Source: Diphasiastrum complanatum (lineage: Eukaryota; Streptophyta; Lycopodiopsida; Lycopodiales; Lycopodiaceae). From it: a stretch of 64,000 nt of DNA. The notes beneath the pieces were generated by a model that worked only from the letters and a program-made list of their open reading frames with translations, made no database searches and had not been told where the DNA came from. The translations under genes were made by a program, and so were the position numbers. How positions within the stretch are numbered: position 1 is the stretch's first letter; each line of letters begins with the position of its first letter. Shown here in pieces: positions 1 to 62,500 of this stretch. The stretch covers positions 23,251,810 to 23,315,809 of the forward strand of contig CM055100.1 of NCBI GenBank assembly GCA_029204225.1, given 5' to 3'.

Positions 1-3000
1 GGACCAACAAAGGCAACTGGAAGAGCAAAGGGAGGTCAAAGCAGCAAGGTGGATAAAAGAAAACATGTGTGAGGTGCAGAAGAGATGGGCACACGGTTGA
101 TACATGCTGGCTCAATCCAAAGATTGAGTGTATCCACTGCCACAAGAAGGGTCATGCAGCCATTGATTGCCGCTTGAACTCAAGAAACAAATAAGCATAG
201 AACAGACAGGAGAACAACAACAGTTCATCCTATGTCGAGGAGCCTGAGAGCTCAAAAATTGACGAAGAGAGATCGAACAAAAATTGTTCGACTGCCTACA
301 TTTGTAAAGACGTGTGTGTAGCGTCAACATCTGACACACAGGAGGTGATTCTAGATTCAGGAGCCACCTCACACTTCGTGACATCAAGATGAATCATGTC
401 TGATTTCAGAAGTGCTGATCCATCAAGATTCATAGTTCTTGGAGATGGATCTAAACATCAAGTGAACGGTATTGGTTCACTGTGGCTCAACACCAATGAC
501 AGAGACAGACGTCTCGAAGACGTTCTATTTGTACCTACACTGCAACAAGACTTGCTTTCTGTGGCAAGAATAGCAGATGCAGGGATGCGTGTGACGTTTT
601 CTGACGAAGCATGCAATGTGATTGATGCCAGTACCAGTACCTTGATCACTCAAGGCAGAAGAAAAGGTAATCTATATCACCTGAAGGTACGCCTATCTAC
701 AGATCAGGTGCATCAGACTCATGATGATTCGCCAGACACTCAATGGCACAGAAGACTATGCCACATGAACCTAATGGCACTTTACCAAGCAAGCCATCAT
801 GGAGCGATAACATGGGTCAGCATCTCGAATGCAACCAGTTCAACCACCTGTGATGTATGTTTGAAGGGTAAGACCAAGATTATGGAGTTAGTGCATTCTG
901 ACATCTGTGGGCCTTTCAATGTGATCTCAGTAGGAGGCTCAAAATATTATATAACCTTCATTGATGATAATAATAAATTTGCCAGAGTGTACTTTATTCA
1001 AAATAAATTGGAAGCACTTGATAAATTCATAGAATATGTGAATGGGCTGAGAGATGTACACGCAACAAAGTGAAGCAGATCAGGACAGATCGAGGTGGCG
1101 AATACATCTCGAATCGCTTCACTGACTTCTGTAATGATCGTGACATCATTCACAGAAGGACTACAGCCTACACATCGCAGCACAATGGTGTTGCAGAGAG
1201 GAAGAATAGTACCCTGATGGAAGCTGCCGGATGCATGATGGCCTACTCAAAGGCTCCAAGGGTACTGTGGGCTGAAGCAGTAGCTACAGCCGCATACATC
1301 CTGAACAGAACATGGAAGTCTGGTGTCCCTCACACGACACCACACGAGTTATGGTGGGGTAGAAAGCCCAACTTGTCTCACATCAGAATCTTTGACTATG
1401 CAGCTTACGCACACATTCCCGATAAGCTTTGAAAGAAGCTTGATGAGAAAGCCAAACGGGGATTTCTAGTAGGTTATGACAACAATTCGTCATACTATAG
1501 AGTCTACATGCTAGACAAGAACATTGTAAAAACAGTGAGAGATGTCAGATTTGATGAGGGCAGGACAATGGCCAATGACGATCCTGTCAGCTATGAAATT
1601 CTGGAGAGACAGTACTATGACTTGCCGCCAACGACAAAGGGAGCAAAAGACGAACACGAAAACGAAGAGTTTTGAGTTGCTTCCCATTCGAGTGATGAAT
1701 CTAAAGACGAAAGATTCGAGAGACAGCCTATTGCTACAGTTCCTATAAACCATGATGGTTCTGGACCTAGCAGAGCAGACCAAGACAAAGGCATTGCTAT
1801 CCCATGAGGATCTCCTAGAAGGTCGACAAGACCACGAAGAGCGCCAACAAGATACGTGCCAGACACCTCCGCTTCTACATCAGAAGAGTTTTGTGGATTC
1901 AGTGACAAACCACAGACTTTCGAGAAAGCAATTGAATGTCCAGAGAAGGACAAGTGGATCCAAGCCATGAACGAAGAGATGGAATCCATGAGGAAGAACC
2001 AGGTATGGACGTTGCAGCCATTACCACATAAGCGCAAGACTGTCAAATGCAAATGGGTTTTCAATTTTAAGTATGGACCAGATGGGAATGTCTCAAAATA
2101 CAAAGCAAGACTGGTAGCGAAGGGATTTTCTCAGAGATATGGTATTGACTACTCTGAAACCTTCTCTCTTGTCATCAAACATTCGTCCCTACATCTGTTA
2201 TTTGCATATGCAACTGCTTATGATCTTAGGATTCACATTGTGGACGAGAAGACAGCCTTCTTGCATGGTGAGCTAGACGAGGAGGTCTACATGGATCAAC
2301 CCCTAGGATACGTCTCAAATTCAATTCCTGATTACGCATGCAGAATGCATAGAAGTATCTACGGTCTGAAACAGTTAGCTCGACAATGGTACAAAAAGAA
2401 GGATCAAGTCATGAAATCATTAGGATTCAAGCCACTGTTGGCTGATTCCAATGTGTATGTCAGAGTTACAGATGGGCAGATCATTATTGTGGTTGTATAT
2501 GTGGACGACACTCTGATACTTTGCAAGAGTGAAAAGCTAATTGCTGAAGTGAAGACAGACATCTCGAAACATTTTGAGATTGTGGATATGGGAGAAGCTA
2601 GGTGTTACCTCGGCTTGCAAATTGAAAGGGACTACAAGAGAGGTAAGCTATACCTTCACTAGTCCAGATACACCCAGAAAATCCTAGAGGATTTTGGGAT
2701 GCTGAACTGCAAAGGAGCGAATACTCCAATGCTCGCAGTAACGATGCTGACAAATGATGATTGTCCGAGGACTGAAGAAGAGAGAGAATAAATGCAGCTC
2801 ACACCTTATAGGAAGCTGAACGGTCGTTGATGTACCTTGCAGACAACACACGCCCTGACATTGCTCATGCAGTATTCAAGATGAGCCAATTCTGCACGAA
2901 TCCAGACTCGACACATTGGAAGATTGCAAAACAAATTTTGCAATATCTTCAATTAACGAGGATTATGGCTTGTGTTATTGTCGTGATGCAGGTTTCAAGA

Positions 3001-3224
3001 TGCTTTCCTACAGTGATGTTGCTGAGCATCCCTCAAGGACGATTGTAAAAGCGTCTCAGGAGGATGCGAAAGAGAATTTTTTGCGGTACAGCATGAGAAA
3101 GTTAGATGACGCAAAAAGTCAAAAGACTCGAAGCGACACGAAAATAGTCGCGAGAACTTTTCTGCCCTCACGCTCCAAAAAGGTCAAGAAGATCATACAA
3201 GTACCCAGAAGTATAGATATCTGA
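1..3224 (+). pseudogene. Ty1/copia gag-pol remnant, 5' end outside window
   Basis: Copia domain order is visible. A CX2CX4HX4C zinc knuckle lies at 129-170 and the protease DSGA at 354-365. A GAG-pre-integrase WHRRLCH and an integrase core (LVHSDICGPF, then RTDRGGEY after a frame change near 1070) run to 1432. Reverse transcriptase occupies about 1856-2662, with KARLVAKGFSQ and YVDD. An RNase H-like tail is recognisable to about 3000. The frame is broken by stops at 192-194, 390-392 (TGA in the protease) and 1430-1432, by a frameshift at about 1070, and by more breaks in RNase H. It would have supplied retrotransposition in virus-like particles; this copy cannot. No LTR boundary was found. 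Class and orientation are secure, exact limits are not. Confidence 0.9.
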
Positions 3225-3754
3225 TCTGATAGCATGACATCAGCAGATGCAATCTAGGTCGTGGCTAATCTGCCACTCTTGTAATTCCTGATTGGTTGTA
3301 GATGTTTCATTACTCTAATCTAGAAGTTACACAGAGCGACTATATACTTTCTGGATGATACTTGATACATATACATGAAGCAGTCTAATGCTAGTAAGCA
3401 AGAAGACGAAGAGACCAAAAAAAAAAAATCCGCTTGCGAGCGAGACAAATTCTGCATAGGATCTGTAGATCCACAAGTCCGCTAGTAAGCGAGACATTAC
3501 TCGTGGGAGAACAATATTTCTCTCACGCCAACGCACTGCGTGGACTTGCATGCAGTGCTTGAAGAATCAAAAAATCAATAGATGATCTTGTAGCCATTTG
3601 CACACATATCACTCTTTTCATGTCTGATCTTGAATGCAAATTAGTCTGCTGTTATTCGTGTGTCTAATTCACTCTTGTTCATTTTAATTATGCACATTGG
3701 TTGAATTTTTGTTGAATGCTACATTAATTTCTAAACGTAGATCAGCAATGCCTG
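3225..3754. other. AT-rich stretch, possible 3' LTR debris
   Basis: There is no convincing reading frame. The position just after a copia RNase H relic makes decayed 3' LTR sequence plausible, but I found no TG...CA pair with a matching copy, so this is only inference. Confidence 0.3.
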
Positions 3755-3959
3755 ACTACATTTTGGAGGACTGTAGGAATGATACAGCTGGCAGTGACCA
3801 ACGATCAGATCCGAACTCCATCCGAATTTGCGTTTCCTTGAATTTTGTCAACAGTTTACTTATTTGAAACAATTGAAAAGAAGTTACTGTCGAGAAATAG
3901 TGACATTCCTGAAGTTGTTGAAGAAGTCGGACACTTTGGTTGATGAACGAAGTTGTCAA

Positions 3960-4053
3960 AGAAGTTGGAGACCCTCATCTTGAATTTCCACAAGTAGTAA
4001 TTCGAACCATCAAGTTTGTCTACCATTAGAGCAGACTGTGATTGCGAATCCAT
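3960..4053 (-). pseudogene. copia gag N-terminal fragment
   Basis: On the minus strand the reading starts MDSQSQSALMVDKLDGSNYY and continues LWKFKMR. This is the usual opening of plant copia gag polyproteins (a LDGxNYxxWKxxM pattern). Similarity is lost after about 30 residues. The start codon lies about 150 bases downstream, in the minus sense, of a primer-binding site, the expected spacing. It is therefore the 5' end of a minus-strand copia element whose remainder is gone. Confidence 0.7.
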
Positions 4054-4204
4054 TGGGAAGTTCAGGATGAGTGTATGTATATAGTAGATTATATGATTGG
4101 AGTCAAATCTAGTAAGTGTCTACTCTGTATTAGAACAATCGTTCCGATACGATATGCTCTAAGACCACACTATATCTATGAAGGAATTAGAGAGTAGAAA
4201 CCTT

Positions 4205-4612: not shown

Positions 4613-6735
4613 AGATACTGTCACCGATTTCTTTGTATTTCTACAAACTGTTAAAAAACAAGTGTATTTATGTAGAGCGTGCAACTGTACAAATATTTAT
4701 AGCAAATGAATGGATCTAGATTAGCAATGAGATAAGAGATGGAGAGGATAGAAATCCAACAACCCCTTTGCTCTATCTCGCCTTTTATGTCATCTCCCAC
4801 TACCTCCCCCTGCGTGCCAAGTGGCCTTTTCTCTCTGATCGCCTTTGCCTGCTTTGCCAGTTGCACGAAGAGACAACTTTTGCACCCGTTCTTTCATTTG
4901 TAGCAGGCACCTCTGGGGGGACTTTGCGCTCTTGCTCAATCATTGTGTGGCCCTTCCCCAGCTCTTAGTGGCTTCTGTATTGCTAGGTGACTTGCATTGC
5001 ATGACTAGGGCTTCGCTCACCTTTTGGCATGTATTTAGGCTCTGTATGTTGTGAAAGCTTTGGATTGTGCGAAACCAATTGGTTATTGACAACTCTTTAT
5101 CACCGCCTTTGGCTGCTATGTGCTTTCAATTTGCAATGCGTCTGCTTTAGCTACTTGCTGTACATTTTTCCTTCTCGTTACTCTTACTGGACTGCCTCCC
5201 TATGTGGTGTGCTTATAGTCCTTCTAGGTTTGTCCACATAGTTCTCATGGAAAATAAAATTCTAACCAATTGACAAGTGTAGCTGATCAAGAAAGACATG
5301 TAATATGTAGAGCATGAGTTGAAGTTAAGGAGAAAAATTTTCCGTAAGAAATCTCACCATGCAATCAGGCTTCTATGAATGGTGTGCTCCGTTTCTGTTG
5401 CAACAAAATGAATCAAGAACTCATAAATACACAACTGCTATAGGAGTGCATGCAGATTGGATAACCGACTTGAAAATTGAAATCTCTTAGATGGTGCTGC
5501 TGACGATGATGAAAGCAGAGATCTCATCCTGACAACGTATAAATGACGTTTGCAAAACACACTAGAAACGTTCATCTAAGACTGAGAGAAGACAACCCAG
5601 GTTTGGACACAGCTGGCTGCTGCATGCAGCGACACCGAGGAGATCGAGAAAGGAAACAAACGTGATAGAGAAACAATAAAGAACTTCAAATTTCACACTC
5701 CAAATGTCAATTGTCATGATTCAAGTTCATTTGAGATTCCTGAAGTCCTTGGAAAATGAAATCATGATCTTTTCGAAAAATTCCAAAAATTATTCCGTGT
5801 CAAGCACACGAAAATTGCAAAGGACGCAAAAAATATATATATATAAATATTTGAAAAAAAATAAAAGAAAATAAAAGATCACAAGCAGGTTAAAACCAAA
5901 CATGAATACAATAAACCTCTGCCTATGCCAGCCTACGGCAGGGCCAAAAAATCATACAAAACATCTCACGACACTGATGAATTAGCATAACCTTCAACAA
6001 ATAATCACAACAACGACAATGTTATATGATAGTCATTTGGATCATGTTTGGACAATCTCATACAACCCAACTTGTTTTCATGGAGTATCATATTGTTATT
6101 GGAGCTACCATATATTATTTACAGGCACCATAACATGAACTATGGACTTTAATGTTAATTGAAGGTGATCCATAAAATAAAGACCTTTTTCTGTGATTGC
6201 ATTGTTCACTTGGCTTGGAAGTTGCACTCTTCCTCTTCTCTTTTGTTTTTGCCTTGTTGTCTTTGTGGCTTCTTTTTGGTAGCCACTTACATCTTATCAT
6301 TTTTTGAGGTAGCCTGGTGCTATCGACCCTACCGGAACGGATGAACATCAAATCATCATCTACACTCACGTTTTAACACGTGGCAGTCATGGTATGAGCA
6401 GCTCACGGACCCCACGCCGCCCTCCCAGCGTCTACAGGAATCTTCGTAGAATATCTCGTAAATGATTTTTGAAGAAAGCTCTTTTGAGAATCGGGACGCT
6501 ACGTCTTTCAGATTGACAGCCAGGTCCAACCTTTTTCTGGTATTTTCTAAAAATAATTTTTTCTCCCTAATATTTATCAATCCTCAATTTACAAAATGTA
6601 GTTTAAATTACCTTTTTCCGGTATTTTTAATATTTGTGCACAGAAACAACCTGGCTATTTCAGGGTGTGGTGACCGCTTGAGCCGGTGGCTCCTGTAATT
6701 TTGTCTTCTCCTCTGTACCTTGAAACTGGACGAAT
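4613..6735. other. intergenic, no gene recognised
   Basis: Only short chance frames are present on either strand, with no conserved motif, RNA gene or long repeat that I can identify. The stretch near 5830-5880 is A/T-rich simple sequence. Confidence 0.5.
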
Positions 6736-7255: not shown

Positions 7256-20737
<13,482 letters not shown>

Positions 20738-48105: not shown

Positions 48106-50143
48106 TTATGTTTTGAGACATTGTCTTAAGTTGTCAATATCGATTTTTCTGCTATCCAAGATTCTGTCATCCAAAAAATTGTAAGCTTCTGCTCCAACAA
48201 GGCAGTCCAAAATGCTTTCAGTAAAAGGTAATGGAAAGTGATATTTTTGCGTCACTTTGTTTAAAGCTTTGAGATTCACACAAATTCTCAATTTCTCACT
48301 CTTCTTAGGAACAATGATAATTGGTGAAACCCATTCCGTGTGCTCGATCTCATAAATGAAATCGGCTTCAAGTAATCTCTATAACCCTTTCTTTATCAAA
48401 TCCATAACATTAGGATTACAACGATAGAACCTTGTGACCTTTGGAACTACATCAGGCATTAAGGGTATGGTATGCTCAATAACTGACGTCGGAATCCCTT
48501 TGAGATCTTTATAAGTCCAAGCAAAGCAATCTTGATATTTAATAAGCAATGTCCGTAGCTCTTGAAACTGTTTAGGAATAAGTTGTGCTCCAACTTGTAC
48601 AATATTTTCTGGTTCTCCTGGTTCAACAAGATTCATAGGCCATCGTAAACATCTTTCAATTCTGGAACTTGTTCTTCAGGTCCACGATGTGCTTTTGGTA
48701 ACATAATAACCACATCATCCAAAGTATAGCATTTGAAATGCTCTGGCATATCATGCTGGACTTCATCTGATTTCTCTTTATCAAAAGAATTAGCCTTTGT
48801 TCTTCGTTTAGCCTTCTTAGCAGGAATCGATTGTGGAGGTGATGACTTCTTGGACGGTGATGTCTTGCGAGAACTCTGACATGAAGAATCATCCTTGACT
48901 TTCCCTTTGCCTTTATCCAATAAAGGTGGCACATTCTTCAAATCAATCTCTTGGGGTGGATATTCCCATTTCAGGACCGTCTTATAATGTTGCTTAGCTT
49001 GTTTCTTCGTCATTGGTCCTGTAATCTTGTCTTTCTTCAATATAAGTGTTTTTGACGATTTTATTGTTGGTTTATAAGAAATATTACGCACTCCAAATAT
49101 GGTAGGATCCATATGATTTAGAATATGCTCATCAATAAATTTTGCATTGTCATCATAAGTCAAGGCGTGACTCACATGAATGAGTTCATCTTCAATCAGA
49201 TATGGTATGGGTTCCGTTGATATCCAAGCCACATTCAGCACGTTCAATAGAAAAGTGAGAGGTGTATCCAAAGTTCGATCCAATAATGAAATCTCGCTCA
49301 AGTCGGACTAATTATCTTATTGACACATATAGCTTGTCGTACACTCAAATTTTGCAAGAGCTTGATTCCAGTTGACAGTATCAGTTTGAGAGTCATAATG
49401 AACTCCCCATTTGTTTACTGGTCGGTCACAAGTGTGATCCATTGTTGATGAATCATCATCCATTTTTTGGGCTATTGGTTTGATAAACTCGTAACCATGG
49501 GCGTCCTAGTAGGACTCGATAAACATTTGGTGCATCAAGTAAGTCCATTACTACAAAAGTAATGACAAAATGAACTCCAACAATTTTGACAAGTATGTCT
49601 TCAACCATTCCTCGCGGACGATCAGCTAGCTTAATGGAAAAAGCCGTAGGCTTAACCCTTGCACATAGCTTTGTTGAAATCAGATTAACTCCTGAACCTC
49701 CATCTATCACGGTTGCTACTTTAGAAAATTGCTATGTTGTATCGGTAGAGTGATATTTTATTGCTCACTTTCCTAGGTTACTCCAACATGGAGTACTTCA
49801 TTAGAATCTTCAAATCCAGCACAAACAAACAGCTCCTGTTGGGCTTCTGGTCCGATCTGAGTTATTTTTTGCGCTAATACTTTTTTTGCTTTCGGCACCA
49901 ACTTCAAAAATTCTCCTAATGTAATATTCATCTCACTAGATAGAATATTCATGAGTAACTCTGTTTGCGGTACTTCCGGTTCAGTCATCTTGAAGGATTC
50001 TTCATGATGATGCAACTGAGTATTAATATATGTTCATGGATTATTTAGTGGTTGCACAAGTGAAGAACGGACTTCGGCTGCGGCTTCATAGAATCTGGTC
50101 ATAGTACTTTGATGCAACTGATTACTCGATTATTTTTTTGATG
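48106..50143 (-). pseudogene. Ty3/gypsy gag-protease-RT relic (minus strand)
   Basis: In the minus sense: a gag-like end (GPEAQQELFVCAGFEDSNEV, about 49773-50015), a protease (MIDGGSGVNLISTKLCARVK, 49710-49456), a long basic/acidic spacer (49301-48633), and the RT start (QDCFAWTYKDLKGIPTSVIE, EWVSPIIIVPKKSEKLRICV, NLKALNKVTQKYHFPLPF). The homology ends at AYNFLDD near 48170, before the YxDD box, so RNase H and integrase are absent. Stops occur between the pieces. It abuts the four-gene element at about 50.14 kb. Confidence 0.85.
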
Positions 50144-52787
50144 ATGACATTATATCATCTACATGTGGATATCCCTATTGATTTGGCACCTTTGCAGAGA
50201 AGAGGAGGCAAAGGAGTTCAAATATATGTTGAAGATCGTTCTCTTATAGGGTAGAAGGAAAGAAAAACTTGGATTTGTGGACAGATGGAACATTATATCC
50301 ACAAGATCCAAGCACGTTGACACATCCCACATTCTCTTCAATAACTCATTTAGTTACATGGATATGCAATGGGCATAGTGGATTACTAGGATATTGTGAA
50401 AGATTGCAAAACCATGGAAAACAACTTTATATGAATAAAGTTCACTTTTTAGAAGGCGAGTTAATTTGGATATCCTCTTATTGTCAGAATAGAGATTGTC
50501 ATCTCCAAAAGACGTTAGAAGAAAATGAACAACTTAAAAAAAATAATGAATCATTACAGAAGATAACAATCAATATCAAATCAGAACTAGAGCAAATGCA
50601 ATCAGTCTTACAGTCTATTCGTATTGAAAACTTACAATTACTGAAGGATGTGGATTTGGCAAAGAAGAAGACTGAAAGTAAGAAGCGAAAGCGACAAAGT
50701 TGCAAGGATATTCAAACGCTTTCAAAAGGAGGTTATCGAAATAGAAGGATCCGTGCATTCAAGTAAGCATATTCTGAATTTTGTAAATTTTTCAATTACA
50801 TTTGGATTTAATTTCAGCTATGGTGATATTCTGTTAACTATTTGTTTTTTTTGCAGATCTGCATTAGTAGCTCCACGGAATATTAAAGACAATGCTTCAC
50901 TAGGAATGTCATTGGGCACAATATTGACTTGCACATCCACTGAGCGTATCATGATGAACAATAGGATTTCAAATGTAAAGTGTAAAATAGCAGAGTCTTT
51001 GATGGTGGACATTCAAAATATTTTAGATAAGACTATAGTTCAGGGTGCTTGCGATTTTGCAGGTATTAGTAGGGAAGCATATGCAACAATATTTAAACTA
51101 ATTAGAGAAGCTTTAAGCAAGTTCAAATTAGAAAAGTCCCAATCCCTAGGACATATCACTTGAAGAAAGAGAGGGATACATTAAACATAGGTATGCATAA
51201 TATCACTGAAACTCCATTTCATATTGAGGAGGTGTATGAAACTGATGGAAGATCGATATTCTATAAATCATCAAACAATTTATTTGTTGATCTAAATCAC
51301 TTGCTGAGATACATCGTCACATTCTATGATATAACCTATGAAAAGGTGAATGGCAAAATAATCATAGTACTTAAGTTAGATGAGTCAGAAATTGTGAAAG
51401 GGCAGAAGATGGAAAGGGTTGGTATAACTCTCATGAATGGTGCTCTATCACAAACAGAGAACCAAGAAGATTTCAAATTCAGTGTCCAGTCAAAAAATGA
51501 TATATGGTGGTTGGCAGCGTTTCAGGTAACTAGTCTCATTATTACACTACATTCATTGAATAGTATTAATACATTGTAAACTAAGTCTGATTAATTCTTT
51601 GGACAGGTGCTGAAAGAGGATCATGATATATTATCATGGATATTCTCAAGGACATCTTATCCTAGGATCATCAAGGACCACATGGATGGAAGACTTCTCA
51701 ATGTTCCAGGAGTTGGAGACTTCAATGTTGAATGGCACTTAGCAGGTGAATTAAAAACATTGAAATGTATATATAATGTCTCCCACGGTGCTACATCAAA
51801 ACGCCCTTGTTTGTACTGCATGAAAATGGCAAAAGATGTAACTAGGAGTACATGAATTACTAGAGAATATACAGATCCAAACTGGAAGCCTGTGCTGTCT
51901 ATCCCCTTAAAAAATGTGCATGTTTGCACTCTTCATGTAGAAGTTAGATTGATAGAAAAGATCATTTATCTTCATATAGTTTTTGCTTGGAATACTAAGC
52001 CAGCATCATTAGCAAAGGAAGCTATCTCTCGATTAGAAGATGTTTTATCAAAAGCAGGACTCCATAAAGGACATGTCAAAATTCAAAAAGATGAAAAGCT
52101 TTCAGAAAAGAATGGGAACATGCCAACTAAGCCAAGCATAGGAGGAACAAAAGCACGTCGTTTTCTGTCAAATCATACTGGTAAGGCTTCTAATATTCAA
52201 CACTCAATCTAGACAGATATTATTGCTGCCACTCAGGACTTCGAGAAAGACGGCAAAACCAGAGTACTAAAAGTTGATGTACAAAAAAAGCTTGATAGTA
52301 TGATTGCTATTTTAAGAAAAGAAAAATACTCTGATATTGATAAGAAAGCTGTCCAAAGGACTTGTGTCGAGTTTGTTAATGCAATATCAAAAGCATGGGG
52401 AGAAGATCACATCACTCATTACATGGTTTGTATAAAATTTTCAAAATGCTTTCAAATTTTCATATATATTTAGATCCAAACATAAGACTAACATTATGAT
52501 TTTGACATATGCAGCACATACTAAGAGATCATACAACATTTTTTGCAAATACATATGGAAGTTTGAGTGTATGGTCATCACAAGGGATGGGGAAGTCACA
52601 CTGGCAAGCACGAGCAGCATTTCATCGAAATACACAACATGGAGGAACCAATGAAAAATGAAATTACATTTGTCAAATGTTTCAGTTGTTCTACCGCAAA
52701 GTTCAGATTCGACATATAACAAAGTCCACACAATACAACAAGTTTAAAAAATCATGCAAGTTCATACAAGAAGAGAAAATTAGATGA
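50144..52787 (+). pseudogene. probable DDE-type transposase of unassigned family
   Basis: Exons read as about 50144-50762, 50857-51525, 51607-52425 and 52515-52787 with GT-AG introns. Exon 1 needs a frame change near 50250, and exon 2 one near 51100-51150. The N-terminal part has a coiled coil (LEENEQLKKNNESLQKITIN). The core has a hydrophobic strand ending LKLDES (candidate first acidic residue, about 51379), GVGDFNVEWHLAGELKTLK, a CxxC in KRPCLYCMK, and IPLKNVHVCTLH. The tail has RNTQHGG. Stops at 51853 (TGA), 52210 (TAG) and 52658 (TGA) fit Trp/Gln codons. The layout recalls large transposases with a G-D-x-K...C-x-x-C core found in many eukaryotes, but I cannot name the superfamily. Confidence 0.6.
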
Positions 52788-52907
52788 TTGCTAAGTAGAA
52801 GATCCTCATGACATGTTCAAAATTGCTTTGCAAATTCATTGAACAAGGGAGGAGAAATACCCAATGTCAATGTATTGATTGTATTATACCAAAATACAAA
52901 GTGTCAA

Positions 52908-54423
52908 TTATTCATCATCAGATCTTGTATCAGATTCTATGGTAGTATTGTCATGAAGAAATTCTCTGTTAACGTATGCATCTAATAGATGTGCATTATC
53001 CTTATTTCCACTAAGCTCAATATAAGTGGAATACAATGAATAATGGGAGTTCCTTAAAGGAACATTTCCATCAGTAAAGCCTAAAATGTTCAAAACATAA
53101 GATCTTTTGACAAAATTGATCTTATTTGTCTTAACAAATTTATGTCCTCCTAGATAAAATGATAAAGCTTTAACTGCCATTATAAGACTCTCCCCGACTG
53201 GGCTCAGCTCGGAATGAGCAATACAGATCTCATTCTTCAGAAAATGCCTAAGATAGTGGCCCAGTCCATTGTCCCTCTGGAACGAGGATGCGTGTTTTCT
53301 GAAACCACCTCGTCTCGCAGCAAAATCATCTATTATGAGAGCATCCTACAATAGGAAATATGTTAGCAAAAACACATTCAGTGATTGAAAACATTCAAAT
53401 GCAAGGAAGATTAAACACTTACACATTCTTCATCATCAGCAGCAACCAGATCAGGATGATCAATATAATGACCACGTACTGAAGTGAAATCATTAGTGAA
53501 GTGCATTAATGATGGATGAGGGAAGCCCATCTGGGATTGAAATGCCGTGAATTCTTCATCGGATAGTCTGCCTCACCCATCCTCAACTATATTTGATAAA
53601 GTCTTATTCATGCATTCTTCACCGGTCATAAGACCCTCCTCATCATCAAAATCAATACTAGCACCAAGGTCATCTGTCTCAAAATCTACAAAGTCGGAGA
53701 ATTCGGAAATTGTGCCAGATAATAAACATAGAACCTCGTCCTCACGATAGTCAACAAATTTACATAAATCAGCAGTAGTGAAATATACATCGTCATTAAT
53801 ATAATATACAGGCAAATTGAAAAGACATTTCGAATTCTCCATAGATTTGGATTCATCATCAGATGTATTTTGGCCAATGAAAGAATCCCGGAGAACATCA
53901 ATATTTACATCAATGAAGTCACTTTCTTTATCAGGAGTGTCGATAAGAAAGTGACTGATATCCTTAATGGCTGACTAAACAGAGGAGGGTGCAAAAGGAG
54001 GGTCAGCAACAAGAACTTCATCATCATCTGGGATCTGAACTAGCTAAAAAAGTACGAAACCAGTCTGATATTCAACCAATCGACATTTCTTGTTGCAATA
54101 CGGACACATTGAACTACTTTTGAAAAGATCAAACAATTTGGTGAACATTCTACCCAGTCTATGTCTAAAAGCTGGGAAGAAATGAACAAGATCAGTATAA
54201 TGCATGTACTAGAGTGGACCTATGGAGAAAACATGCTTGCTAGTATATTTTTGAATCTGACATAATGTTCATAAAATACGTCAAAATTTGGTTGTGCAGT
54301 CCTGAAAACATGTAGATATGGCCTGAATAGATTGTGGAAGTAGTCTAGGTTTTCAGTAATCCCAAATTCACTCAGAAATGAACTCAAGCCTGATTCTCGT
54401 GAGGATGATGAGGAAGAGGCCAT
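52908..54423 (-). pseudogene. MASSS-type acidic protein with CPYC motif, function unknown
   Basis: The start at 54423 (MASSSSSSRESGLSSFLSEF) runs 67 codons to a TAG at 54220. One frame change there continues into YTDLVHFFPAFRHRLGRMF, then MCPYCNKKC (a zinc-ribbon-like CxxC...C) and a very acidic middle (DLGASIDFDDEEG). The intron at 53346-53422 (GTAAGT...TTGTAG) keeps phase into the last exon (53345-52908), which has RRGGFRKHASSFQRDNGLGH and ends DTRSDDE. A splice between 54220 and 54172 is an alternative to a frameshift. Two TAG and one TGA interrupt the middle exon. The start is conserved in the 25.25-kb copy. The gene lies tail-to-tail with the transposase and head-to-head with the histone-Ulp1 gene. 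Confidence 0.6.
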
Positions 54424-54440
54424 GGCAGTAACGTGAATAT

Positions 54441-55206
54441 CGCACTTGTGCGCGCGGGAGAACTGAACCAAAACTAACTATCAAAATGGCGCAGAAGATG
54501 GATATGTATGGCAGACAGATACAGAATATCGCACTTGTGCGTGAGTAGGTATAGTCGCAAGCAAACAGACAGCAATGAGCATGCATAAAAGCTATATGTC
54601 ACGAATTTTGAGAATGGAAAAGGTAAAAAATTAATCGGTTTTTGTGCTATTTATACTAAATTTTTGCACGTGTGGTCAACGGACTTAGGACACGTGTCTA
54701 CTTTCAATTGGACAACAAGCGCAGGCACGTGTGAGATGACACCTGCACACGTGTGAAATGACACCTGGACACGTGTCGCTCTCACATTCAATCGTACAAA
54801 TCCCACATGTGTAATGTGACAGGGTGACATGTGTTGCTCTCACATTTGTCTGTACAATGCCCACACGTGTGACAAGATGTTCTTTCGCACATGCAAACCC
54901 CGATATAAAATCACAAATTTCGATGAATTTTTTTCACTTTTTTTTTTGCTCCGCATATCGCATTTGTGCGCACCCTTCACAATCGAAATTCCTCCTACTG
55001 CCTTCCATGCGCACAGGTCCGATACATCTGCCTACGTGTTATCCCATATCGCACTTGTGCGTCTTTCCTCAAATCTAATCGTTCTCTCTGATATCCAGCT
55101 CGCACAGGTCTGATATACAGTACATTCTGTCCGTACATAACGGTCCTCTGTGAGTTCTTTATCATCCCTCCCTTCTCATCCTAACCTTCACGCACAAGTC
55201 CGCTAT
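54441..55206. promoter_or_regulatory. array of palindromic CGCACAAGTGCG-type sites
   Basis: CGCACTTGTGCG with ATAT in front occurs at 54441, 54530, 54959 (one mismatch) and 55050. The same motif in reverse orientation (CGCACAGGTCCGATA, CGCACAGGTCTGATA, CGCACAAGTCCGCTA) occurs at 55010, 55101 and 55191. Spacings are 89 bp for the left pair, and 51, 40, 51 and 90 bp on the right. The sites flank both divergent start codons (54423 minus, 55223 plus). They look like operators for an element-encoded DNA-binding protein; that role is inference. Confidence 0.65.
54667..54869. promoter_or_regulatory. cluster of six CACGTG boxes
   Basis: CACGTG lies at 54667, 54691, 54726, 54748, 54770 and 54864. Those at 54726, 54748 and 54770 belong to 22-bp tandem units (CACGTGTGAGATGACACCTG and variants). 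Near-matches with CACATG lie between. CACGTG is the G-box bound by plant bZIP and bHLH factors. The cluster is in the middle of the divergent promoter. Confidence 0.7.
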
Positions 55207-55222
55207 CAGATAGTACACGCCC

Positions 55223-56961
55223 ATGGATAGGAGAAAGCAGACAAGGAGGGACTTCTTCTCTCCTGGCTCATCCTCATCTCTTGTGGTTGCCATCACACCA
55301 CCTGCTAGACCTAGAACGCGTAACCGCAGATACGTAAATATCAGAGATCTACAGTTCTGTTGATCCCAAGAGCTCCATTCTACCGTGCTGTCAGTAACAT
55401 AACAAGAAATGATCTTGGACAACATGTTAGATTCACACCGAGTGCTCTTCAGTGCCTTACAAGAGGCTGCTGAAGATTATATTAGCCTTTTTTTTTAGGA
55501 TTCTTTTTTGCTTGCCATCCATACCAAGAGGGTTACCATAATGCCCAAGGATTTTCAGCTTCTGATGAGAATGAGGGATAGGTACTGTAGGTTACATGTA
55601 TCTCAGCCTGCTGCTCCTAGACCAACTCTTGTAGATAGGACTAATCTTCCTACGAAGCGTCCTAGGAAGCAGACAGCCCCCAAGCGTGCTCCTAAGAAAG
55701 TGAAGCCTAACCCTTCAGATTCTATGAAGCCTATCCCAGAATCCATTGTAGATAACGCTGCTGTTGATAGTGCTGTAAATATAGCTACCTCTGTTTTGGA
55801 TACTCCTATAATTGCTGTAGATACTACACATCCACCTCCTCCTCCTCCTCCCAATTTTTATACATATATAGATTCAGATGATTATCTTAAATTTGAGAAA
55901 GACATATCGGATGCCATAGATACAATTGGTACTCCTTTTTGTTTTAGACTAGATGAACTTGATTTTAGTTTCAATTTTAGAGTTCTAGATTGTCTGGATC
56001 TCAAAGACAGATGGACTTCTATCAGTGATCATGTGATAGAGTTCGGGCTTACACTCTTGCAATATGACATTGCAAGAGATTCATCAAATGAGTTGCTGGT
56101 GCAGAGTAACTTCCTGCTTCAGGCTTTCAAGGAGAACAATGACACATTGTCACAGTGTCTGACAAGTGGATTCACACCAACAACAAAACATCTGCTCATA
56201 CCTTATCATACAAAGTAAGTTATATTAAATGCTTCTTGCTGTTTTATGCATTAACATTGGCATTGTCAATGAAAATAGTTCTCAGAATTGCAACTAAAAA
56301 ATTCCAATCTTATTTTGTAGTGACCATTGGAGTTTAAACCTGATCTCTATTAAGAGATCTGTAAATAATATTATTAAATGTTTTTGTGTCAAAATGAATT
56401 CGGCGAGAAACACGCATAAGGATGTAGATATATACATTCCATATCTAAGTAGATATATTCCTACAGACGTTCCCCATTCCGTGGACTGGCAGATCGTCAG
56501 CTTGGAAGTAAACTTTGTCTTTCTTAATAGCATTTTGAAATCAGTATTCTAATGAAATATTTTCAGTCTAATTCATTCTGTTTCATAATTGATATCTTGT
56601 GTGCTGAATTATTTTGCAGTCACCCCAGCAAAATGATTCATTCAATTGTGGGTGGTACACATTGTACAATGCCAAGTTGTTTTTTTATTGGTTCAACCTT
56701 CAACAAGATGTTGATATTTCTAAGGTAATAAATTCTGTTTATTCTTATTTTGAAATCATGATTAGTTTTCTATTCTGGTGATGTTATTGGCCATTACTAA
56801 TACATGAATGTTCTATTTTGCAGTTTACACTTCCTGAGTACACATCAAGCCAAGTGTACAGATTTAGACAAGAAATTATCCTGAGTATACTGGTTAGGGC
56901 AAGGCTTCAGCCTCCCGTTATTGATGATGGTGCAAAGGATGATGTAGTTGTACTAAATTAA
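55223..56961 (+). pseudogene. histone H3/CENH3-like domain fused to a Ulp1 (C48) SUMO protease
   Basis: Four exons in phase: 55223-56214, 56321-56507, 56620-56724, 56824-56961 (473 codons). The N-terminus MDRRKQTRR recalls H3 ARTKQTAR. VNIRDLQ matches the alphaN helix, and SALQEAAEDYISLFF, a stop, then DSFLLAIHTKRVTIMPKDF match H3 alpha2 to the C-terminus. AAEDY, DS and KDF are CENH3-like choices. A basic Pro-rich linker (TKRPRKQTAPKRAPKK, then seven prolines) follows. The Ulp1 domain (about 262-420) has RWTSISDHVIEFGLTLL, catalytic His333 in NDHWSLNLI, and Gln396 with Cys403 in PQQNDSFNCGWY. TGA 55361, TAA 55400 and TAG 55496 break only the histone part. A family-type role would be desumoylation, with a possible nucleosomal target. 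Canonical H3 is less likely than a CENH3-type ancestor. Confidence 0.8.
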
Positions 56962-57156
56962 GATCAGAAAAAATATAGATAACATAGAACAAAAATACAT
57001 GTATAGACTTCATAGAAAAATATACATTGATATATCGAATGCTGCTCCAGTTTATGAATTTGGGAGCACAAAATACATGTACAGATGCCCAACTTGGGCT
57101 TTTATTTATTGAATGAAAGAGTGTATACACAGATTTTTACTAAAGTTTATTTGAAG

Positions 57157-58529
57157 CTATTGTTCTCCCACAATGGTGATTGTTGTAGGTAGATCTTTGC
57201 AGCATGTTATCAGCTCCTGTATTTTTTGCATCTGTGACATGGCAAATATTAGTGAATGTGCAATTGTAAATGATGACATTTTTTATAATTTTGTTCTATT
57301 TTGAAATGGCAATAAACATAAAGTACTTACGAGTCTTCCGTTGATGATAAATCTGAAATATTTTGCTAGATTGGTTTGTAATAGCATGAGCTCTGTTCTG
57401 ATAAAATCAAGCTTCCAGTGCTCTTCCACCTCAACCATAGTCAAATATTCCTCATTGTAGATAATGCTTATCTCCATTCGATTTGTGTGACCATCTAGTT
57501 CAAAGTCTTGATCCAGTGGTAGCCATGTACCTTCAATTTTCTTGTATCTCTGGTAGCTAAATGTGAGACTGAGCATTTGCTTTTTGATATGATAACGAAA
57601 GATCATTGATGACTTTTTAATCCTGCATTCTATGTCATTATTTGTTTTACTATCCCAGCCTTGATCCATGAGATCTGACAAAGTCTCATCTGATAAATCC
57701 TTGCAAACAAATAAAGTTGGTGTCCTACGAACACTAGCACTTGAGAAAAAATCAACAGATGTATGCAATGAGATAAACCAACTTAGGTGAACAATTTTCG
57801 AGCCTGTGCTTATCTTCATAGCATTTTTAATATCAATGAGTAGCTTCCATCTCAAGGATTCAGAAACAATGCTGTCAGGAGTAGGCCACTCATCACTTTG
57901 AAAACTAGGCAATGGAATTGCTTCGAGCTTGCCAAAACCTCCATCTGTTTGTGGCGTATATAAAGATTCATAAAAATAGATACCACAATCTGCAAGTTCC
58001 TTTGGACTTCTTCCTCTGTATTGCAGCTTTTCAACATCAGAGTGAATCACGTCTAATATTTTTGCAAGTGATTGTGCGGGTTCCCATTCACTTATGCATG
58101 ATGGATATAAATCTGAAAGAAAAAAACAATGTTGAGGCATTCAAATCATAATCTGAAGAGCATCAATAAAGGAAATCACCTATGATTGCTGTAGAGTGCA
58201 TATGTTTCGATATACTTACAATTACATTTTTGATGATCATGAGGATTGATATCATGTACTTTGATTTCTGAATGCATCTATACATGTTGCACTAAGACTT
58301 CTGATATCGATTGAACTCCCGGGGTAGTCTTAAACTCCAAAATTTTTGCTGTCCAATAAGATTTGTAAGTCATTTTTGCTCTTTTCTTTTGTCGAAAATT
58401 GCCCTTTGATGATGGATGCACCAATACCCATGAGTTCTTCGTATATTTTGTTGGCTTCCAGTTATCAGCTTTATCTTTCTCATTGTAAAGAATCACATAA
58501 TCGATTTTAGATCTGGGTCTCCTTGCCAT
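57157..58529 (-). pseudogene. fourth element gene, unknown function
   Basis: In the minus sense the exons are 58529-58220, 58112-57331 and 57231-57157, with introns starting GTAAGT and ending TTTCAG and TCACAG. Phases match exactly (310, 782 and 75 nt; 388 residues plus stop). It opens MARRPRSKIDYVILYNEKDK and has TKNSWVLVHPSSKGNFRQKK. The body is hydrophilic with W/Y-rich segments (RYKKIEGTWLPLDQDFELDG) and ends TTITIVGEQ. A single TAG at 58278-58280 reads as a former CAG. I recognise no domain, signal peptide or membrane segment. It is tail-to-tail with the histone-Ulp1 gene. Confidence 0.65.
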
Positions 58530-58594
58530 TGCTATTTTTAAACCTTGAGCGCCAAAAATCTCTCTGATATGTTACTTAATTTTAATCTAATGTG

Positions 58595-58720
58595 AATGCC
58601 AACATAGTCACAGTTACTGCGTATACCATATTTTATGTAACTGTACATACTATATTTCTATGACTGTAACTAGTATAGTTAGAAAATTTCATTATACTAA
58701 CCAGTATAGTAAAGTAAATT
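58595..58720. repeat. short TATACT/AGTATA palindromes at the element's right edge
   Basis: A perfect inverted repeat TATACT-AACC-AGTATA lies at 58693-58708. AACTAGTATAGTT at about 58668 and related ACTG..TATAC words at about 58610 and 58640 accompany it. Clustered short repeats upstream of the last minus-strand gene resemble transposon subterminal repeats. No counterpart was found on the left side. Confidence 0.4.
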
Positions 58721-59446
58721 TAACTTGAGGTATTGACGTCGGGCAGATTAGCACGTGTCGGGCAGGAAGAAGAAACCAATGGGATACGTCCATGCTGCCC
58801 GGACACAAATTTCAAAGTTTTCTATATTGCATTTTTATTTTTTAGTTAATTTGAACTACGTTATGTAGATTTCAAATCTGTGCATTTTGATTGGGCCTGG
58901 TGACGGTCGAAACTAAAGAAAAAAAATAAAAGTATCATTACAAAGGGTCTTTCTGATATCGAGAACTCCTCTAATGTTTTTCGGGTTTTGCTGCATTGGC
59001 AGACGGACGTCGCCAACTTATCATCAACCCTAAAACAGCTGGAGAAACAAATATCCTAAGGGCATTTACCAGCTTTGTATAGATGCAAAACTGGAGTAAA
59101 TGGTAGTTAAGGCATAAGATATTTTTCTCTTGACACTTGTAAATCTATATATTAGCTGAATCAAGCTATGTAAGTGTTAAATCGAATTTATCTTTCAATC
59201 AGAGTTTTCTGTAGCCAGCGTTATCATGCTCAGCAAGCTGAAGTTATTACTTCAAGCTATTGTACTCATTGTTGATATTAATCAGAGTGCAATTTTTGTC
59301 TCACTACTGCGTCGTTCATTTGCGCAATCTATATGAATCCTTCTACTTGAATATTTCTGCAACTAACTGTTGCATTTCCGTTCCTACATGCTGCGCTCAA
59401 ATCTTTGAGCTTCCGCTGTCGCTCATGCGCCCACTGTTTTATGACA
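58721..59446 (+). repeat. probable 5' LTR of the following copia
   Basis: The right limit is fixed by TTATGACA directly before the primer site at 59447. The left limit is unknown because the 3' LTR partner has been lost. There is no coding sequence. GTCGGGCAG is repeated at about 58739 and 58768. Confidence 0.45.
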
Positions 59447-59589: not shown

Positions 59590-62500
59590 ATGGATCCATC
59601 ATCTAGTTCATCTCTCATTGACAAACTCGATGGAGATAACTACCATCTCTAAAAATTCAAGATGAAGGTTATACTTCTAGCCAAAGAACTGGGGGACATC
59701 GTTGATGGCACAGAGCTCAAACCAGAAGGTGATGTAGCCATCATCACCAAGTGGAGATTGAGAGATGGCAAAGCATTTGCCATGATTACCCTCAACATCA
59801 AGGATGCATGAGACATCCTAGTAACTCTCTATGACATCAGAGACGTTACGTCCAAGCTTCATCTAAGGAAGAAATTCTTCACCCTCAGAATGCCTGATGT
59901 AGATAGTGTTTCAAGTCATCTCAACACTTTCAAAAATCTTATGGAGCAGATGACTGCAACTGGTTCAATGATAGAAGATTCCGATGCACTCATGACTCTA
60001 TTATCGAGTCTACCTGAAGCCTACAAAAATTGGGTAATGGCAATTTCTACCCAAGAGCACCTCACTCTATCAAGAGTAATTTCGCTGCTCCTACAAGAGG
60101 AGATTAGAAGATCAGCATCCTCCTCAGGCCCAAGATCGGATCCTCAAGCCCTGTATTAAAAAAATTAGAAGTTTAGATCCAAGAGGTCTACAAAGTCAGG
60201 CTATACTAACAAGAAGAGCAATATGTAGTCTGGACCAAATTCCAGTTCAAGATCGAATTCAAGCTCTTCATCATTCCAACCAGCACAAAAACTTTTCTGC
60301 AGATGCTGTAAGAGGACTGGCCATGAAATCAAGGACTGCCGAACTTTGAAATACAACAACAAAAAGAAGAAGCAGTTCCAACAACAAGCACATAATGCTA
60401 CAACCAGTCACTCAAATCAGCAACAACAAGAAGAAGAAGATGATGAAGCAGCTTTCATGACCAAAGTTGGAGAACAACAGAATATCGATTCTTGGTATCT
60501 AGACTCTGGAGCAACTCAACACATGACTCACCGTTGCGACTCATTCAAAGACTATAAGTCATTCACCCACTCTTGAGTTGTGCAACTTGGAGACAACTCA
60601 TCACATTCAATCGAAGGTGAAGGAACAGTCAGAGTTGAATTCAAAAGAGGTGAGGTCAAGTTGTTGTCCAACGTTCTCCATATTTCAAATCTGACCAAGA
60701 ATCTGCTCTCAGTTAGCAGAATCATCGATTCAGGTCAAAGGGTTGAATTCGATACAGAAGGCTGCAGATTCTTGACAAATCCCGAAAGATTCTAGTATAT
60801 GAAAGAAGAAGCAGCTATCTTTACAAACTCAGCCATTCCTATTCTTCTAACAGTCAAGCTCTTCGCACAGCCACTTCTGAATCAACTGATATGTTGTGGC
60901 ATTTCAGACTTGGGCATCTCAACTTCAACAATTTTCAGCAAATGTCAGCTCAGAGTCTAGTACAAGATCTGCCTTTGGTCAGCAAGCCAACTTCTCCATG
61001 CGAAAGCTGTATTATCAGCAAGCATGCAAGGAGTCCCTTCAGTTCAGACTCAGTTCATACATCCAAGGGCTTGCTTGACCTTGTACATAGCGACATTTGT
61101 GGCCCGATGCAGACTGCTTCCACAGGGGGAGCTCTCTATTTCCTAACCTTCATCGACGAGTTCTCTCGAAGGACTGCAACCTACTATATGAAGAACAAAT
61201 CCGAAGCATTCAAGTTCTTCAAGCAGTTCAAGGCGTGTGCAGAAAAACAGACCCAGAGGAAGATCAAGGCTCTACGCACAGATGGAGGGGGAGAGTACAT
61301 CTCCACAGAATTCAAGGAGTTCTGCAAGGCCAACGGGATACATCAACAATATACAACCAGCTACTCACCTCAGTCCAATGGTATAGCTTAACGAAAGAAT
61401 CAGACACTCATCAAAAGTGCCAAGAGCATGATGGCCCATGCCTTTCTTTCAAAATTTTTTTGGGCAGAAGCTGTTACTACAGCTGCCTATTTGCAGAATC
61501 GATTCATCACCAAAGCCCTGAATGGCAAAACACCTTATGAGGTGTGGACAAGATCAAAACCATCACTCAAACACATTCGAGTGTTTGGATGCATCGCTTT
61601 TGCTCAAATCCCTAAGGATCTAAAAAGAAAGCTAGATGACAAGAGCAGGAAAACGATTTTGATTGGCTATTCTCCCGAACACAAGGCATACAAGCTCTAC
61701 AATTTGGATAATGAGAAGGCATTTACCAGTAGAGATGTCATTTTTGTGGAAGACCAGTTCATCGACCACAAAGGAAAAGCTGTTGATAAATCTGACTCAA
61801 GGATAGAACAACCAATCAATTTCCGATCCAGAGATTCAACTGTAGAATATCAACGCTGACTCAAACAATGAATCAGAACCTCAACGAGTCAACTCACATC
61901 AGAGGACTGAAGTTCAACCCAGAAGATCGAACAGGTCCAGACAGCCTCCATCTAGATTTATGAATGATCCGGCTTGCCAATTTGTGCAGGAACCAACCAT
62001 TGTTTCTGAGGCGATGTCTACTCCTGATGCTGACCAGTGGAAAGCAACGATGGTTACCGAATTCGATTCTCTTATGGAGAATCAAACATGGACACTCACT
62101 AAGTTGCCAAAGGATCGAAACCCAATTCCATACAAATGGATATTCAAGACGAAGTATGACATTGAAGGAAGACTAAATCGTTACAAGACCAGGCTAGTCG
62201 CGAAAGGCTTTTCCTAGACTCCAGACTCGAATTATTCAGAAACCTTCAGCCCAACTGTCAAACATGCTTCGATCTGCCTACTCCTCTCCTTTGCAGCCGC
62301 AGAAGATTTTGAAGTCCACCCAATGGATGTCCAGACCGCTTTCCTCAATGGAACCATCGAAGAGGAAATCTATATGACGCAGCCAGAGGGATGCGAACTC
62401 AACGACAAGCAGCAACACCTTGTATGCAGAATCCACAAGGTGCTCCACGGGCTAAAATAGTCACCCAGAGCCTAGTTCCAGAAGATCAACACATTTTTGA

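Follow-up and report, generated by a model that had tools for sequence, protein, structure and literature searches.

The window, by which we mean the whole 64,000-nucleotide stretch of the Diphasiastrum complanatum genome analysed here, contains the remnant of a mobile element in which histone H3-like sequence and C48 (Ulp1-type) peptidase sequence lie together in one gene on the forward strand (55223-56961, ATG at 55223). The fusion is gene 3 of the four in the carrier, an element of 8.7 kb bounded by terminal inverted repeats (TIRs). The window copy comprises the following features.

50083-58976, forward strand: remnant of a lineage A element with a complete right end, delimited by blastn against 10 copies (homology on the left ends at 50083)
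50233-52473, forward strand: gene 1, decayed, with a coiled-coil-like N-terminus and a putative transposase (from open reading frames)
52908-54477, reverse strand: gene 2, broken in the window and open over 355 aa in the copy L011 (from open reading frames)
54435-55205, no strand: CACNTGTG/CACANGTG motif array, with related motifs of the CGCACTTGTGCG type, lying between gene 2 and gene 3
55223-56214, forward strand: gene 3, exon 1, with the H3-type tail, the H3 fold (frame-shifted), a basic/proline linker and the N-terminal part of C48 (from relatives in which the exon is open)
56321-56507, forward strand: gene 3, exon 2, carrying the His of C48 (NDHW, spanning the splice) and, where Asp is usual, an Asn (KMN); ends set by eye, with matching junctions in the copy L014
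56620-56724, forward strand: gene 3, exon 3, with the C48 Gln and Cys (SPQQNDSFNCGW); Pfam C48 0.0012, just below the cut-off
56824-56961, forward strand: gene 3, exon 4, ending in TAA; layout shared by the copies L014, L046, and L048
57140-58571, reverse strand: gene 4, with a 285-aa open stretch (57283-58140) and an upstream open stretch (58278-58571) (from open reading frames)
58942-58976, reverse strand: right TIR, CATTAGAGGAGTTCTC..., with substitutions in the window copy

The three introns of gene 3 have GT/AG ends (exon ends were set by eye), and their removal brings together the motifs NDHW and QQNDSFNCGW. The first-pass annotation had described a single phase-consistent frame of four exons. 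The gene, its ATG, and the three introns stand, but the frame is not open through the histone: alignment with a relative reveals a short deletion, a one-base shift, and a stop after EDYISLFF. The alphaN/alpha1 region and the start of alpha2 (IRKYQRSTVLLIPRAPFYRAVSNITRNDLGQHVRFTPSALQC) are out of frame with both the tail and the alpha2-alpha3 part, and the proposed alphaN helix VNIRDLQ was a wrong-frame reading of IRKYQRST. The order of the domains (H3-type tail, histone, linker, C48) had been read correctly, even if their continuity fails. With an X entered at the stop, the histone piece matches Pfam Histone at 1.4e-11. The fusion of histone and protease is real, and the window copy itself is broken.

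We searched the 1.74-Gb genome, where the window lies on contig C9, with the 239-aa open stretch of the window that covers alpha3, the linker, and the C48 part of the exon. All of the best 150 of 8359 candidates matched this query with E below 1e-126, and 22 of these 150 listed matches had an open frame of at least 331 aa with no stop within the match. The seven of these 22 that were read all join an H3 fold to the start of C48. Ten copies (L009-L018), selected partly by their long open frames, were taken as 10-kb pieces. Exon 1 is open in seven (L010, L012-L017; 331-343 aa from stop to stop), where it encodes the complete H3 fold and, after a basic linker, the beginning of C48, and is interrupted in the other three (L009, L011, L018). 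An ATG lies within the open frame in five of the seven open copies and outside it in L013 and L017. The lineage A tail reads MDRRKQTRR, and the fusion proteins are about 470-517 aa long. One copy, L012, is internally rearranged: at 2516-4083, its 5' segment is inverted and abuts the middle of the element.

The profile search proposed by the first-pass annotation was made on a spliced relative, L014. Exon 1 of L014 matches Pfam Histone (5e-28; 98.2 bits against a cut-off of 26.4) and an H3 chain in the PDB (E 7e-23). The spliced protein of 470 aa matches both Histone (1e-27) and Peptidase_C48 (1.1e-10; 42.2 bits against a cut-off of 20.7) above cut-off. The C48 part alone has its best PDB matches in a Ulp1-like SUMO protease, at E 0.001, and in yeast Ulp1, at 0.0014. 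The search for other genome copies joining the two domains, also proposed there, found them and left the claim unrefuted.

Further families were retrieved with a histone-family search (best 153 matches) and with a CENH3-fold search (best 150 matches; the query was an approximate Arabidopsis sequence). The first set of loci that we read (10 loci) contains 8 of lineage B, 1 of C, and 1 of A, and the second (13 loci) contains 7 of D, 3 of E, 2 of A, and 1 B-like. In lineages D and E, the H3 fold also runs on into a C48 part, an assignment that rests on alignment rather than on Pfam: L046 (D) matches the histone alone, with no C48 match, and L048 (E) gives C48 at 0.0071 and 16.6 bits, below the cut-off of 20.7. 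Once spliced, L046 and L048 are 33% and 36% identical to L014, respectively, and the three introns lie at matching places in these three copies, one per lineage. The D and E copies with an open tail start with MARTKQT, as H3 itself; L048 has a stop inside its tail, so that its protein lacks a start. The joining of an H3-type histone to a Ulp1-type protease in a mobile-element gene, as first proposed, is supported by many copies and by three diverged lineages, and on these grounds an artefact or a chance fusion was rejected.

Lineage B (L021-L024, L026-L029, L039, L040, L042) encodes a long proline-rich part with proline runs, followed by an H3 fold that ends the protein, and its element genes are in other orientations. 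Gene 1 (50% identity with lineage A over 113 aa) and gene 4 (34% over 113 aa, E 6e-19) show that this element is of the same kind, though distantly related; gene 2 is weakly similar to its counterpart (E 0.025). A motif scan for C48 near the histone in three B loci gave three chance-like hits, none of them C48-like. The two parts therefore need not act together. The 10-kb piece L041 carries a lineage C histone and a separate A-like histone-linker fragment (4914-5306, 7283-7810).

Copies that appear shortened are also present. A degenerate pattern for ATG-ARTKQTARLT has 195 exact matches in the genome (90 forward, 105 reverse; none for the reversed control). Among the first 100 listed, 70 lie at 18.5-21.8 Mb of contig C3 and 7 at 29.9-30.15 Mb of the same contig. 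Three C3 pieces (L061-L063) hold five such starts: four have an H3 tail and fold, open over 143-171 aa with no protease, and the fifth stops early. These three pieces look like local amplification of shortened, H3-only copies. In two other pieces (L047, 3-788 on the reverse strand; L054, 72-1307), a part of gene 1 runs into the histone in an open frame; these are probably deletion derivatives that make new fusions.

The carrier has a sharp right end (...GAGAACTCCTCTAATG), common to the window and 7 of the 10 copies, and a left TIR seen in L014, L019, and L020. In L014, the right-end sequence is found inverted at the left, 8.7 kb away, forming a perfect 35-bp TIR. The TIR 32-mer has 1,147 exact matches in the genome (582 forward and 565 reverse), and its reversed control has none; a search with 60 bases of the right end, in which very common words were skipped, returned no match. 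The ends read CATTAG. Target-site repeats of 3 bp (TCA) flank one of seven end pairs, which chance could give, and inspection by eye found no 8-bp repeat in these seven. Pfam gave no match above cut-off for the open pieces of genes 1, 2, and 4.

These features were compared with known classes. CACTA (CMC) elements have CACTA-type ends, a 3-bp target-site duplication, and a known transposase domain; this class was rejected given the CATTAG ends, the 3-bp repeat in only one of seven end pairs, and the gene 1 pieces without Pfam match. A hAT element was set aside because the open pieces have no Pfam hAT match and the seven end pairs no 8-bp duplication, and a non-TIR MULE because of the perfect TIR of L014 and the 1,147 exact 32-mers. 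A BAH-like reading of gene 4 was dropped, as Pfam gave nothing. A scan of viral contigs for relatives gave eight stretches that matched a pattern, none of which was confirmed. Just outside the element, the window carries open frames that we read as Copia-type gag-like (59653-60159).

We computed dN/dS by Nei-Gojobori counts on copies chosen for open frames, which may lower the ratios. The values for the histone fold are 0.26 in A (8 copies), 0.26 in D (5 of 7), 0.35 in E (3), and 0.35 in B (8). Those for the linker/C48 part of exon 1 are 0.47 (A), 0.61 (D), and 0.40 (E), and those for the tail are 0.45 (A), 1.01 (D), 0.77 (E), and 0.97 (B); the short remainder of the exon in B has 0.18. The histone fold has the lowest ratio among the compared regions in each of the fused lineages. 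The folds of A and of D or E are 52-54% identical over 85 aa, with silent sites near saturation.

The similarity to histone H3 and CENH3 covers the whole fold (Pfam 1e-27); the present fold differs in being fused to a protease and borne by a transposon, in the length of loop 1, and in lying outside both groups in the tree. It is 56% identical to the host H3 over 85 aa, and the transposon copies are 47-56% identical to the approximate Arabidopsis CENH3 fold. The fold tree (35 folds, with five approximate references and four CENH3s among the sequences used) groups A, D, and E (support 94/85, below the starred level) and separates them from the host H3 and the CENH3s; its deep forks are weak, and the CENH3 references do not form one group. 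The description of the histone as CENH3-like is at most tentative: LLIP and a longer loop 1 (A, D) resemble CENH3 to our eye, but the tree puts the transposon histones outside both H3 and CENH3. H3 genes and transposon copies take up the best 150 matches, and no host CENH3 gene could be distinguished among them. When A, D, and E are aligned (three rows), the positions of H3 H113, R116, D123, and L126, to which we assign roles in the H3-H3' bundle, do not vary. From these conserved interface positions, we infer that the fold may assemble into nucleosomes with H4.

The protease part resembles Ulp1/SENP (MEROPS C48) in its Pfam match and in the order of His, Gln, and Cys; it differs by an Asn at the Asp place, by the histone fusion, and by strong divergence. 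Where a catalytic Asp is usual, all three proteins of the alignment (A, D, and E) have Asn, and the pattern used for this place in the scan of genome copies could find Asn only. The QQ...GW motif is recognisable in 17 of 26 sequences scanned, and 15 of these 17 keep the Cys, which is absent in L016 and L048 (Tyr in the latter) and present in the E copy L050. The misses in L005-L007 carry little meaning because these were scanned in the stored strand only.

Upstream of gene 3 lies the motif array. With a pattern chosen after sight of the window, we counted 10 sites in 800 bp, whereas the remaining 8,094 bp of the remnant have none; when these 800 bp were shuffled 300 times, the mean was 0.21 sites and the maximum 2. 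The corresponding counts are 8 upstream of the fusion gene against none elsewhere in the element for L014, and 10 against 1 for the lineage D piece L060 with its flanks; shuffles over all three tests gave at most 4 sites. Seven of the 10 lineage A copies have 7-11 sites. L013, L015, and L016 have 1-4, and their homology begins inside the array region. In lineage B, the array is absent from loci L039 and L042, and the sites of L040 cluster elsewhere.

As read from its sequence, an accessory gene of a high-copy TIR element thus encodes an H3-type tail and the complete H3 fold, joined through a basic linker to a C48 domain. This recalls VANC and the Ulp1-carrying VANC genes KIU (Kaonashi) of the Arabidopsis VANDAL MULEs. 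KIU genes induce hypomethylation of related copies, the role of Ulp1 within KIU is stated as unknown (PMC13317346), and VANC21 binds dense arrays of short motifs in non-coding parts (PMC5735166). The likeness extends to an accessory transposon protein that has Ulp1 and a DNA-addressing part (PMC13317346) and to dense short-motif arrays in the non-coding DNA of the element (PMC13317346, PMC5735166). It is one of architecture and motif arrays. The differences are that a histone H3 fold would here do the addressing, that TIRs bound the element whereas those VANDALs are non-TIR MULEs, and that the motifs are near-palindromic.

By this analogy, we favour, with a confidence somewhat short of even, the reading that the fusion protein is an anti-silencing factor that works like VANC/KIU and uses its histone as a chromatin address. 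The histone module, paired with H4 or engaging H3 chaperones and readers, would bring the protein to chromatin. The protease would then act on silencing factors or on the nucleosomes near the element, stripping them of SUMO or of a related modifier, and the lifting of SUMO-dependent silencing would allow the element genes to be expressed. As such arrays do for VANC, the motif array in the upstream region that gene 2 shares with gene 3 could label copies of the element itself. An antagonism to SUMO-dependent silencing had been put forward in the first-pass annotation, and it is the mechanism that we favour. Entry into chromatin, protease activity, and anti-silencing are all predictions from the encoded domains; candidate substrates are SUMO, other ubiquitin-like modifiers, and proteins of the element. 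In favour of this reading we count the two Pfam matches of L014, the architecture and introns shared by A, D, and E, the low histone dN/dS, the retained Cys, the invariant interface positions, the upstream motif array, and the VANC/KIU precedent. Against it stand the Asn in place of Asp, the lineage B histone with no C48 in its exon, the weak or missing Pfam C48 matches of E and D, a motif pattern chosen after sight of the window, and the lack of the array in L039 and L042.

The histone and the protease could also be mere passengers, a captured H3 gene and a captured Ulp1 gene copied along with the element. There is a fungal precedent: among Dothideomycetes, a hAT element of Pseudocercospora fijiensis has captured H3, with hundreds of copies (PMC6710886). 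That system resembles ours in having an H3 within a 9-10 kb, high-copy DNA transposon with TIRs; its H3-like copies are inactivated by RIP in P. fijiensis except for the original, and many are potentially active in Pyrenophora (PMC6710886). The part of that report considered here mentions no protease fusion (PMC6710886), whereas in our case the fusion and the fold are kept across old lineages, and the present element has no hAT domain or 8-bp duplication that we could find. The broken copies, namely that of the window and three of the other 10, would fit passengers. Yet the three fused lineages, with D and E 33-36% identical to A and silent sites near saturation, have kept the fold, the domain order, and the introns, and the histone dN/dS of 0.26-0.35 (from copies chosen for open frames) also argues against this account, which we consider improbable. 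The maintenance of the fusion in several old branches suggests a chromatin tool rather than an accident.

The protease could instead cut the element's own proteins, with a histone fold that just dimerises or packs element DNA. C48 relatives can serve as maturation proteases, the protease of Polinton-like elements presumably cuts the element's own proteins, and lineage B keeps its histone without a joined protease. We nevertheless regard such self-processing as no better than doubtful, since Pfam, run on the open pieces of genes 1, 2, and 4, detects neither a capsid-like nor a polyprotein domain.

The histone fold might also serve as an integration tether that seats the protein in particular nucleosomes, e.g., centromeric ones, where the transposase would insert while the protease clears SUMOylated target proteins. 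Loop 1 and LLIP resemble CENH3 in our reading, and contig C1 has two clusters of exact element ends, 14 at 65.1-66.7 Mb and 27 at 95.0-100.6 Mb. The 16 flanks that we compared (L064-L079), of the 41 listed ends, nevertheless fall into two groups, one per cluster, which are 93-99.6% identical within each group, mostly over 250 bp (about 165 bp for L074). Such near-identity indicates duplications, not independent insertions. Hence, centromere targeting, raised in the first-pass annotation, finds no support in the C1 clusters, where the flanks of 16 of the 41 ends reduce to two duplicated ones, and it was rejected as an explanation of clustering, given this duplication and the local amplification of shortened copies that the C3 pieces show. 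Moreover, the tree does not place the transposon histones with CENH3, and the copies among the matches listed are spread over many contigs. We therefore think a tether improbable as well. Spacings of about 28-33 kb recur between several ends within the C1 clusters.

Least probable of all is an H3 mimic whose tail (MARTKQT in D and E) baits H3K4-directed enzymes or chaperones with the protease secondary, for although the ATG-ARTKQTARLT pattern has its 195 exact matches against none for the reversed control and the local C3 array keeps tail and fold without protease, the tail, taken as a whole, has changed more quickly than the fold (dN/dS 0.45, 1.01, and 0.77 in A, D, and E, respectively), the A tail reads MDRRKQTRR, and the B N-terminus is long and proline-rich.

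The anti-silencing reading can be extended into a bolder proposal, which the comparison of sequences makes conceivable and which we advance as rather unlikely in its full form: a clade of DNA transposons would carry its own H3 variant as a standing part, and at least three old lineages would have welded a SUMO-type protease to this variant, yielding a catalytic histone that the element builds into, or sets against, the chromatin of its host, a self-addressed editor able to overcome silencing. Should the protein enter nucleosomes, it would be a protease-bearing histone and a natural tool for local deSUMOylation, and it would offer a direct test of the use of SUMO by plants in silencing mobile DNA. 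The fusion also points to a way in which H3 variants could move between transposons and their host.

Published precedents exist for Ulp1 domains in transposons and, in fungi, for an H3 captured by a transposon. The titles and abstract openings that we searched, with subscription papers mostly and bioRxiv wholly outside the search, gave no transposon-borne histone-Ulp1 fusion, and prior notice of one elsewhere is possible. The genome itself has three Peptidase_C48 matches, the best of which (C5:76129325-76129789) lies in one open frame and is perhaps a host Ulp1 gene.
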